From NCBI GenBank assembly GCA_021300495.1, contig JAJTDK010000023.1:1-50490 (forward strand): a stretch of DNA of 50,490 nt. The letters run 5' to 3'. The notes under the pieces were generated by a model, which saw only the letters and a list, made by a program, of their open reading frames with translations, searched no databases and was not told the origin of the DNA. Positions 3,819-5,741 of this stretch are shown here, piece by piece; within the stretch, counting starts at the first letter, position 1; each line of letters begins with the position of its first letter. The position numbers were made by a program, and so were the translations under genes. The DNA is from Limnohabitans sp. Its GTDB lineage: Bacteria > Pseudomonadota > Gammaproteobacteria > Burkholderiales > Burkholderiaceae_C.

Positions 3819-4643
3819 ATGCTGAACCCCAAAGTGTCTCCCCTCGTATTTCCAAGACTTCTGCTCACAGGTGCCGCAGGGCAATTGGGCCGTGAGTTAC
3901 GTCCGCGCCTAAAGGCCAACTGCGATGTGCTTCGGGTCAGTGATCAAAATGATTTGGGTATGGCGGCAGTTGGCGAAGAAATTCAAACAGCAGATTTGGC
4001 CAATGCATCGGACATGCAAACGCTTCTTAAAGATGTGAATGCCGTCGTCCATTTGGGCGGGGTTTCTACAGAGCAACCCTGGGCGCCCATTTTGGCCAGC
4101 AACATTGTGGGCATGGTCAATCTTTATGAAGCGGCACGCTTGCAAGGCACCAAGCGCATCGTATTTGCAAGCTCCAACCACGTCACAGGCTTTTACCGAC
4201 AAGACGAAGTGGTCAACACCAAAATGCCAACTAAGCCTGATGGTTTTTACGGCCTGTCCAAGGCCTTTGGCGAAGATCTCGCGGAATTGTATTGGGCGCG
4301 TTGGGGCATTGAGACTGTGAGTTTGCGCATTGGCTCTTCTTATGCAGAACCCAAAGACAGACGTATGTTGGCCACCTGGCTAAGCTTTGATGATTTAGAG
4401 CGCTTGGTGGTCTCTGCACTGACGGCCCCCATCGTGGGTCACACCATCATCTTTGGCATGTCAGACAATCAATCCTCTTGGTGGGACAACACACATGCCA
4501 AGCACATTGGCTACCGCGCACTTGATTCTTCGGATGTTTTTAGACACGAAGTTGAAGCACGTCAACCGCACATTGACAGACATGACAAGGCCGCACTTTT
4601 CCAAGGCGGTGATTTTGTCAAAATCGCACCTCACGGCGAATAA
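3819..4643 (+). CDS. udh: Uronate dehydrogenase (short-chain/extended SDR family)
   Basis: Likely oxidises D-galacturonate and D-glucuronate with NAD+ to the aldaro-lactones that open to galactarate and glucarate, the substrates of the adjacent dehydratases. The 274-aa protein has the Rossmann motif TGAAGQLGRE (about residues 17-26), the catalytic YxxxK as Y144-GLS-K148 and the preceding SSNHVTGFY stretch typical of bacterial uronate dehydrogenases. Family length is about 265-275 aa. The function call rests on sequence resemblance plus its place after gudD; a generic sugar-nucleotide epimerase is less likely because of the short length and the context. An AAGGA Shine-Dalgarno (CAAGGAAGC) precedes the ATG. 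Confidence 0.87.
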   Translation: MLNPKVSPLVFPRLLLTGAAGQLGRELRPRLKANCDVLRVSDQNDLGMAAVGEEIQTADLANASDMQTLLKDVNAVVHLGGVSTEQPWAPILASNIVGMVNLYEAARLQGTKRIVFASSNHVTGFYRQDEVVNTKMPTKPDGFYGLSKAFGEDLAELYWARWGIETVSLRIGSSYAEPKDRRMLATWLSFDDLERLVVSALTAPIVGHTIIFGMSDNQSSWWDNTHAKHIGYRALDSSDVFRHEVEARQPHIDRHDKAALFQGGDFVKIAPHGE

Positions 4644-4687
4644 GCACTGCCGTGCGCTCATCCTTGTTAAAGCCCGGAAAGACCTCA

Positions 4688-4740
4688 TTGACAGTCAGGA
4701 ATATTGATAAATATCAACAATATCAATAAGTTATATATTT
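4688..4740 (+). promoter_or_regulatory. AT-rich rpoH upstream region with promoter-like boxes and repeated TATCAA
   Basis: A perfect TTGACA box lies at 4688-4693, with a TATCAA box 18 nt downstream. A second, better -10-like TATATT lies at 4734-4739, directly against the CIRCE operator. Between them TTGATA (4704-4709) is followed by TATCAA at 4712-4717 and again at 4721-4726, forming a short palindrome plus an extra half-site. Multiple promoters are usual for rpoH genes. The assignment is by eye only. Confidence 0.45.
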
Positions 4741-4765
4741 AGCACTCCCTCTAAGAGAGTGCTAA
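4739..4765 (+). promoter_or_regulatory. CIRCE operator (HrcA binding site) upstream of rpoH
   Basis: The sequence matches the CIRCE consensus exactly: TTAGCACTC at 4739-4747, a 9-nt spacer, then GAGTGCTAA at 4757-4765. CIRCE is the binding site of the heat-shock repressor HrcA, normally in front of groESL or hrcA-dnaK. Here it sits 31 nt before the rpoH start codon and just downstream of a TATATT -10-like box, where a bound repressor would block transcription. It also falls in the 5' untranslated leader, so the hairpin could act in the mRNA. hrcA itself is not in this window. Confidence 0.88.
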
Positions 4766-4796
4766 AATCCGAACTATTATGGAAAGGAGTTCTGGT

Positions 4797-5741
4797 ATGA
4801 CAAACCTAGCTGGATCCCTCGACACTGCACTCACCCTGAAGAATCCATGGGCCGTAGTGCCTTCGTTGGGGCACCTCGATGCCTATATTTCTGCGGTCAA
4901 CCGCATGCCCATGCTCACCCTCGAGCAAGAGCAAGAGTTTGCGCGCAAACTGAAAAACGAAAACGACCTAGAAGCCGCTGGTAAGTTAGTGCTCTCACAC
5001 TTGCGCGTGGTGGTTTCTGTGGCACGTCAATATTTAGGCTACGGCCTGCCCCATGCCGACCTCATTCAAGAGGGCAACATCGGTTTGATGAAAGCCGTCA
5101 AACGCTTTGACCCCGATCAAGGCGTGCGCTTGGTGAGCTACGCCATGCACTGGATCAAGGCCGAAATTCACGAGTACATCTTGAAAAACTGGCGCATGGT
5201 CAAGGTGGCCACCACCAAGGCACAGCGCAAATTGTTTTTCAACCTGCGCTCCATGAAGCAAGGCATGAAAGCCGAGGCCGATGAAGCCACTGGCACACAC
5301 CGTGAAACCTTGACTGCTTCTCAAATTGACAGCATGGCCAAAGACCTGAACGTCAAACGCGAAGAAGTGATGGAAATGGAAACGCGCATGTCGGGCGGTG
5401 ATGTGCTGCTAGACCCATCACCCTCAGACGATGGCGAAGTGGCCTATGGCCCAATTGCCTACTTGGCAGATGCTCACCACGAACCCACCGCCATGATCGA
5501 AGCGCACCAGCGCGACCTGATGGCCAGCGATGGCATTGCCACAGCCCTTGCGTCGCTTGATGAACGCAGCCGCAGAATTGTGGAAGAGCGCTGGCTCAAA
5601 GTGAACGACGATGGCTCGGGCGGCCTGACCCTGCATGACTTGGCCGATGAGTTTGGCGTAAGCGCAGAGCGCATTCGCCAAATTGAAGTGGCAGCCATGA
5701 AAAAGATGAAATCGGCTTTGATGGAATACGCTGAGGCTTAA
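4797..5741 (+). CDS. rpoH: RNA polymerase heat-shock sigma factor sigma-32
   Basis: Directs RNA polymerase to heat-shock promoters. Region 2 is clear (LTLEQEQEFARKL, then DLIQEGNIGLMKAVKRFDP and the RpoH signature around VSYAMHWIKAEIHEYI), followed by the RpoH box-like stretch KAQRKLFFNLRS and a C-terminal region 4.2 helix-turn-helix (LHDLADEFGVSAERIRQIE). I place the start at 4797, giving 314 aa, because AAAGGAG at 4783-4789 lies 7 nt upstream; the earlier in-frame ATG at 4779 would overlap that ribosome site. The gene stands alone, preceded by an exact CIRCE element, so HrcA repression is predicted in addition to the usual post-transcriptional control of sigma-32. Confidence 0.95.
   Translation: MTNLAGSLDTALTLKNPWAVVPSLGHLDAYISAVNRMPMLTLEQEQEFARKLKNENDLEAAGKLVLSHLRVVVSVARQYLGYGLPHADLIQEGNIGLMKAVKRFDPDQGVRLVSYAMHWIKAEIHEYILKNWRMVKVATTKAQRKLFFNLRSMKQGMKAEADEATGTHRETLTASQIDSMAKDLNVKREEVMEMETRMSGGDVLLDPSPSDDGEVAYGPIAYLADAHHEPTAMIEAHQRDLMASDGIATALASLDERSRRIVEERWLKVNDDGSGGLTLHDLADEFGVSAERIRQIEVAAMKKMKSALMEYAEA

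Follow-up and report, generated by a model that had tools for sequence, protein, structure and literature searches.

The stretch of DNA analysed here (50,490 bases; the window) carries rpoH, encoding the heat-shock sigma factor sigma-32, on the plus strand at 4797..5741 (start 4797, stop 5741), identified by TIGR02392 (394 bits, cut-off 323) and NF005143 (406 bits, cut-off 241). The control region is bounded upstream by a co-directional plus-strand gene (3819..4643) resembling NAD-dependent sugar dehydrogenases/epimerases, with the Azf family as its top NCBIfam match (113 bits, below the cut-off of 400). Before rpoH lies a predicted CIRCE operator (4739..4765, plus strand), TTAGCACTC CCTCTAAGA GAGTGCTAA, made up of left arm (4739-4747), spacer (4748-4756) and right arm (4757-4765) and separated from the rpoH start codon by 31 bp. 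It is an exact 27-bp site, agreeing with the consensus at 18/18 positions, and the only match at ≤3 mismatches across the window; a chance match was rejected as its source, since 100 dinucleotide shuffles of the window yielded none (chance expectation 0). A sequence-only reading of this DNA had described an exact CIRCE before rpoH, and both the site and, by TIGR02392, the identity of the downstream gene are borne out. Its placement of the operator between a TATATT box and the ribosome-binding site stands as far as the flanking elements go (GGAAAGGAG, 4781..4789, plus strand, read from the sequence), but the box (4734-4739) overlaps CIRCE by one base, the final T being common to both.

The window is contig C96 of an 86% complete MAG (2.43 Mb, 132 contigs), whose RpoH is 93–98% identical to those of its seven nearest relatives (L004-L010, four of them named Limnohabitans) and 76–86% identical to the remainder of the list; on these identities it is taken for a member of the Limnohabitans group. 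Control by HrcA, proposed from the sequence alone, presupposes an hrcA gene, and a full-length copy is present in the assembly (PF01628, 228 bits; TIGR00331, 312 bits, cut-off 197), divergent from a neighbouring gene that by eye encodes NAD kinase. At ≤3 mismatches the assembly has two CIRCE sites in all, one preceding rpoH and the other groES (control search with the pattern read backwards: one match per strand). The gene after groES is, by eye, groEL, and a sigma-32-type promoter, CTTGAAA-N12-CCCTTAT (L002, minus strand, 1555-1530), closely precedes the groES CIRCE. CTTGAAA was found by eye at a like place in 10/13 groES loci, eight of which were flagged by the full pattern.

A search for the same site before rpoH in related genomes, which the sequence-only reading had advised, found it at every one of the 80 nearest loci (the best 80 of 568 rpoH relatives from named genomes; near set), drawn from genera that include Limnohabitans, Rhodoferax, Curvibacter, Polaromonas, Comamonas, Variovorax, Acidovorax and Ramlibacter. 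The near-set sites are exact in 67 loci, differ by one mismatch in 12 and by two in one, and sit 27–82 bp before the matched start; runner-up matches in the same stretches have 5–9 mismatches. Across the window and its seven closest loci both CIRCE arms are 100% identical, the spacer 72%, and the stretch from CIRCE to the start codon is 93% conserved.

For the order, 120 genomes from 51 families were sampled, with rpoH in 117 (118 copies, upstream DNA of all taken); G006, G030 and G045, all with hrcA, gave no rpoH match and were dropped. hrcA was found in 108 of the 120, although the G085 copy is a 42-bit remnant with a stop. CIRCE at ≤4 mismatches precedes rpoH in 106/118 loci (43 exact, 40 with one mismatch, 18 with two, two with three and three with four): 105/105 loci with intact hrcA vs 1/13 without (Fisher p 1.5e-15, the relatives not being independent). 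Best matches in the 12 site-less genomes (G019, G034, G040, G041, G044, G053, G066, G085, G086, G089, G110, G115) have 5–8 mismatches; eleven of these genomes lack hrcA and the twelfth, G085, has the broken gene. The sole departure is G052 (84% complete, 520 contigs), which keeps CIRCE and has no hrcA that could be found. Joint loss of hrcA and CIRCE is seen in a single sampled genome of each of families f35, f4 and f25, where others kept both, and in f20, f41, f42 and f45 both are gone from every sampled genome.

The class draw comprised 143 genomes: the window's own, one further member of that family, and 141 that each represent a different family. Outside the order, CIRCE precedes rpoH in 84/90 hrcA-bearing genomes (84/91 loci; nine hrcA-bearing genomes without an rpoH match dropped) vs 5/24 hrcA-less genomes examined (Fisher p 8e-12, the relatives not being phylogenetically independent). 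These 24 came from 39 hrcA-less class genomes with rpoH, 20 hand-picked mostly for completeness and four returned by search. Six hrcA-bearing genomes (G231, G191, G145, G239, G132, G156) lack CIRCE in the 500 bp examined next to rpoH, and G151, also hrcA-bearing, lacks CIRCE at one of its two rpoH copies. Among the five hrcA-less genomes with the site, G124, G157 and G218 are 62–81% complete; G135 and G213 (97–99% complete) are either true exceptions or genomes in which hrcA was missed. Counting CIRCE anywhere in the genome outside the order gave 97/99 hrcA-bearing vs 9/42 hrcA-less genomes, four of the nine (G152, G223, G246, G253) lying outside the rpoH examination. A phylum draw contained 12 same-class loci under new locus numbers, with the site in two (G205, G173) and absent in ten, of which G126 and G257 are hrcA-less and the other eight of unchecked hrcA status. 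In another class of the phylum, probably Alphaproteobacteria, CIRCE was found at 0/15 rpoH loci (the best-scoring of 45 genomes, second rpoH copies left out; hrcA not checked there). No CIRCE stands before the rpoH of E. coli K-12 (best match 7 mismatches), and the E. coli control genome has no PF01628 match for HrcA.

The near-perfect arms, the variable spacer and the joint presence and loss with hrcA argue for control of rpoH by HrcA, as the sequence-only reading had predicted, and the rpoH CIRCE is, with high probability, the operator by which HrcA represses rpoH transcription at the predicted start site. For the HrcA/CIRCE regulon, the window has the operator TTAGCACTC-N9-GAGTGCTAA before rpoH and hrcA in the genome, and among relatives the site is kept or lost with hrcA, with exceptions.

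The operator appears to share bases with promoter elements. The right arm plus three further bases forms a candidate extended -10, TGCTAAAAT (4760..4768, plus strand; TAAAAT 4763-4768), the extended -10 form being TGN TANNAT, and TTAGCA in the left arm (4739-4744), 18 bases upstream of TAAAAT, is a candidate -35; TTAGCA-18-TAAAAT is the sole plus-strand promoter-scan call in 4500-5100 (9/12 with TG). As 1.4 copies of the 9-mer are expected in the window by chance, it gains its weight from its fixed place: TGCTAANAT, the right arm with the next three bases, is present in 80/80 near, 73/106 order and 52/87 class loci, unlike at groES CIRCE sites (0/13; all 13 control loci found by a simple start-peptide pattern in 30 loci), where the bases completing the extended -10 are absent. 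The third base after CIRCE is T in 105/106 order loci. N[AC]T follows CIRCE in 170/193 order and class loci vs 1/13 groES sites (p 1e-9), including 30/37 order loci without a GAAC box, and occurs at the mirror position before CIRCE in 15/193; it therefore does not belong to the symmetry of the HrcA site.

Upstream of the operator lies an AT-rich block seen in the window's lineage (4704..4738, plus strand; placed by eye, promoter scan silent), whose 35 bp show 94% column identity in the window and L004-L010 vs 77% further upstream. It offers alternative promoter elements, TTGATA (4704-4709) with TAAGTT (4727-4732) 17 bases on, and TATATA/TATATT (4732-4739) directly before CIRCE. A window promoter in this block, placed by eye, was set aside, the extended -10 at the right arm now being the better candidate; the AT-rich readings and the extended -10 alike would place initiation inside CIRCE or no more than about ten bases from it. 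The block also holds the palindrome TTGATAAATATCAA (4704..4717, plus strand), an exact TTGATN4ATCAA and the only one in the window, which we take to be of FNR/Anr type. It is found at the same distance before CIRCE in 6/7 closest loci, and Crp/FNR-type HTH proteins are encoded in the window genome; an oxygen input to rpoH in the window's clade through this palindrome is possible.

A second, sigma-E-type promoter (GAACTT-N16-TCNNA) overlaps the left arm and spacer in many relatives. The word seen ahead of CIRCE in many of them is GGAACTT. GAAC occurs in the scanned zone of 68/105 order loci (106 less the CIRCE locus of G082, left out for its short upstream DNA), where shuffles preserving base content only give 4.4 expected and a maximum of 11. 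It starts 15 or 16 bases before CIRCE in 60/105 loci, 13 in six and 11 in two. GAAC is at the right place in 58/87 class loci, starting at -15 or -16 in 55/87 (the 87 include three loci from hrcA-less genomes), and in 39/80 near loci, starting at -11 in 36. TCNNA after GAACNN-N16 was found in 44/68 order, 44/58 class and 34/39 near loci with GAAC, compared with 15, 7 and 4 at spacer 17, one sequence possibly counting at several spacer lengths. In near loci the -35 has moved by 4 bp and the -10 moves along with it, from the border of left arm and spacer (words TCTCA, TCTTA, TCTAA) to spacer positions 3-7 (TCTAA, TCCAA). A spacer that begins with T[CTA]A, whichever way it is read, was found at 14/36 rpoH sites vs 1/38 other CIRCEs from the same genomes (p 9e-5; spacer control from 37 genomes, among the matches listed). 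As judged from these motifs, a sigma-E-type promoter would feed into the same spot in roughly two thirds of the sampled relatives, its -10 lying in the CIRCE left arm and spacer; with motifs over both CIRCE halves, each half of the operator seems to serve also as part of one of two promoters.

Two of the 12 site-less order genomes keep this promoter: hrcA-less G034 (GGAACTT-N16-TCATA, CIRCE decayed to 5 mismatches) and hrcA-less G115 (TGAACTT-N16-TCTTA, repeat changed). The pattern is not found in the other ten, six of which (G019, G041, G044, G066, G086, G110) have either no RpoE match or a distant one. In the hrcA-less class genome G196, TGAACTT-N16-TCTTA runs through the left half-site TTGGCACTC and CIRCE is gone (6 mismatches); a like pattern was seen in 4/20 hrcA-less stretches, one of the four far upstream, vs 1/20 on the reverse strand. 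E. coli rpoH has GAACTT-N16-TCTGA, the match starting 121 bases before the start codon.

The GAAC box in turn goes with RpoE. It is present in 1/7 order genomes that have CIRCE and lack a true RpoE (G000, G009, G031, G033, G076, G101, G102) vs 67/98 others (p 0.007; G037, with RpoE split across two contig ends, scored as RpoE-bearing), and among near relatives in 11/11 with RpoE vs 1/17 close ones without (L017, GGAACAC by eye). RpoE was not found in the window assembly (86% complete; best TIGR02939 match 28 bits, cut-off 236), nor above that cut-off in any of 17 close relatives searched (0/17). These 18 genomes without RpoE are the window's and those of L004-L010, L012, L015-L018, L020, L023, L025, L032 and L059; RpoE is present in all 11 other near relatives searched (30 loci chosen for the survey, less L037; L055, likewise named Limnohabitans, was not among them). 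The window's freshwater group thus seems to have lost the sigma-E factor of envelope stress. At the window's own rpoH no GAACTT -35 stands at the expected place, and hence no GAACTT-N16-TCNNA promoter; sigma-E control of this gene, suggested by TCTAA in the spacer CCTCTAAGA, was rejected because the -35 is missing and no RpoE was found. The word, seen in 0/7 sister loci, may be a trace of an old sigma-E -10.

Three other accounts of the region were weighed against operator function. The inverted repeat might act in the rpoH mRNA as a 5′ hairpin governing stability or translation, rather than as a protein operator; the transcribed leader may include the repeat, and a 9-bp stem is part of the predicted minimum-energy structure of 4739-4830. 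However, the fold is unexceptional (z = -1.7; 10/200 shuffles fold equally well), the arm sequence itself is conserved, as the 67 exact near-set sites illustrate, and a hairpin would not explain why the site vanishes along with hrcA; we regard this account as highly improbable, by a narrow margin the least likely of the three. Scarcely more credible is that the arms are kept as promoter elements, with HrcA binding at rpoH incidental or without effect and sigma-32 set post-transcriptionally, as E. coli rpoH is controlled. An extended -10 can indeed be read in the right arm, the sigma-E-type -10 adjoins the left arm, and E. coli K-12 rpoH has GAACTT-N16-TCTGA with no CIRCE, yet promoter use needs no full 9-9-9 palindrome, and the arms are kept with hrcA, one or both decaying without it.

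The remaining account makes a protein of FNR/Anr type on the AT-rich block the main regulator in the clade, with CIRCE secondary. The palindrome and its conservation in the closest loci speak for it, as do the Crp/FNR-type proteins, but the FNR-type box is present in only six near loci, plus two at another distance, of the 80 that all carry CIRCE, and being AT-rich it may be part of a promoter; we regard this account as highly improbable too, on a level with the promoter-element account.

Under repression by HrcA at CIRCE, the reading preferred here, the HrcA dimer, kept active by GroEL, would sit on CIRCE over both promoter and start site and exclude RNA polymerase. HrcA activity depends on GroEL, so unfolded protein occupying GroEL would free both rpoH and groESL: heat or other stress would tie up GroEL, HrcA would come off and both transcripts would be released. 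New sigma-32 would then drive additional groESL transcription from the sigma-32-type promoter, and recovered GroEL would render HrcA active again, closing a negative feedback. The window's lineage would have lost RpoE and the sigma-E box while keeping the extended -10 form, with the AT-rich block upstream. Use of either promoter, HrcA binding, and the sign and timing of control are all inferred here. The sequence-only reading had set the two main heat-shock circuits in a cascade instead of in parallel. As CIRCE mostly comes and goes with HrcA among the relatives sampled, the circuits do look wired together; the plain cascade, however, calls for refinement, since groESL has both a sigma-32-type promoter and CIRCE, an arrangement that predicts a feed-forward loop with GroEL feedback.

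On balance we lean towards a common origin for these arrangements, in which rpoH across the class Gammaproteobacteria (beta included) would descend from one ancestral composite, an HrcA operator and two promoters on shared bases (sigma-E -10 in left arm and spacer, extended -10 from the right arm), HrcA and either polymerase excluding one another base for base; E. coli, with sigma-E P3 and no HrcA, would be the remnant after HrcA loss, and Limnohabitans, which would have lost sigma-E and kept HrcA, its mirror image. Heat shock is usually shown as two alternative designs, positive (sigma-32) and negative (HrcA/CIRCE). Against joint wiring, HrcA and RpoH of Agrobacterium were reportedly called independent in the title of a 1999 paper. 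If the present reading is true, HrcA/CIRCE would stand atop sigma-32 in most HrcA-bearing genomes sampled in the class, and one 30-bp element would join envelope stress (sigma-E), chaperonin load (HrcA/GroEL) and the cytoplasmic response (sigma-32); the composite would join basal supply to envelope stress and chaperonin load as well, and E. coli would be a derived, simplified case. Base sharing predicts that altering the spacer or the three bases that follow the right arm would in each case hit one promoter and leave HrcA binding intact.

HrcA/CIRCE is classical at the groESL and dnaK operons, where operator (9-9-9) and repressor are the same as here, groES having the window genome's other CIRCE; the difference is that the target here is the sigma-32 gene, the other heat-shock regulator, and not a chaperone. 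An exact CIRCE before rpoH, as in the window, is already listed for Geobacter sulfurreducens, at -51 from the start codon and predicted by comparison in 2004 (PMC545781, Table 8); that report, in the part covered, concerns one species, grouped with the delta-proteobacteria, and does not mention sigma-E overlap or co-loss. The comparative-genomic hints mentioned in the sequence-only reading thus have a counterpart in Geobacter sulfurreducens (PMC545781) but, in the literature covered, found no confirmation for betaproteobacteria; they may be those of the survey by Permina & Gelfand. For the sigma-E side, SigE of Bordetella bronchiseptica drove transcription from the rpoH (fam) promoter in vitro, and this promoter and the sigma-E-dependent E. 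coli rpoH P3 are of the GAACTT-N16-TCTGA type found in many of the relatives here (PMC3490749), unlike the window, which has neither such a promoter nor RpoE; the covered text of PMC3490749 contains 0 mentions of HrcA or CIRCE. A review, as far as covered, puts a heat-inducible rpoH promoter of Burkholderia pseudomallei under rpoE control (PMC5994319). Cupriavidus metallidurans rpoH is among the genes with several start sites in the covered part of PMC7563307, so part of rpoH transcription may escape a single operator. Among the matches listed, no title concerned regulation of rpoH by HrcA in beta- or gammaproteobacteria (the Permina & Gelfand survey was not covered), a phrase search found no literature pairing the CIRCE element with a position upstream of rpoH, and PMC5343134 and PMC3840689 make no mention of HrcA or rpoH. 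How widely the site extends across order and class, its disappearance together with hrcA and the double use of the same bases by operator and promoters were not met in the literature covered.

Several loci depart from the common arrangement. By eye, G115 carries a perfect inverted repeat, TCAGGCACT-N9-AGTGCCTGA, over its sigma-E-type promoter (L193, ~331-357 of the reverse complement), perhaps a replaced operator. The rpoH CIRCEs of G012, G060, G104 and G065 (L131, L134 and L136, family f13; L135, f19) have a common right-arm change, GAGTGC to AAGTGC, perhaps an operator variant. G047 has two rpoH copies (L214, L220), each with CIRCE and a GGAACTT box, although with 3% contamination its assembly may be a mixture. 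L324 (G129) has, by eye, two tandem CIRCE-like sites before rpoH, in a genome with four CIRCEs.
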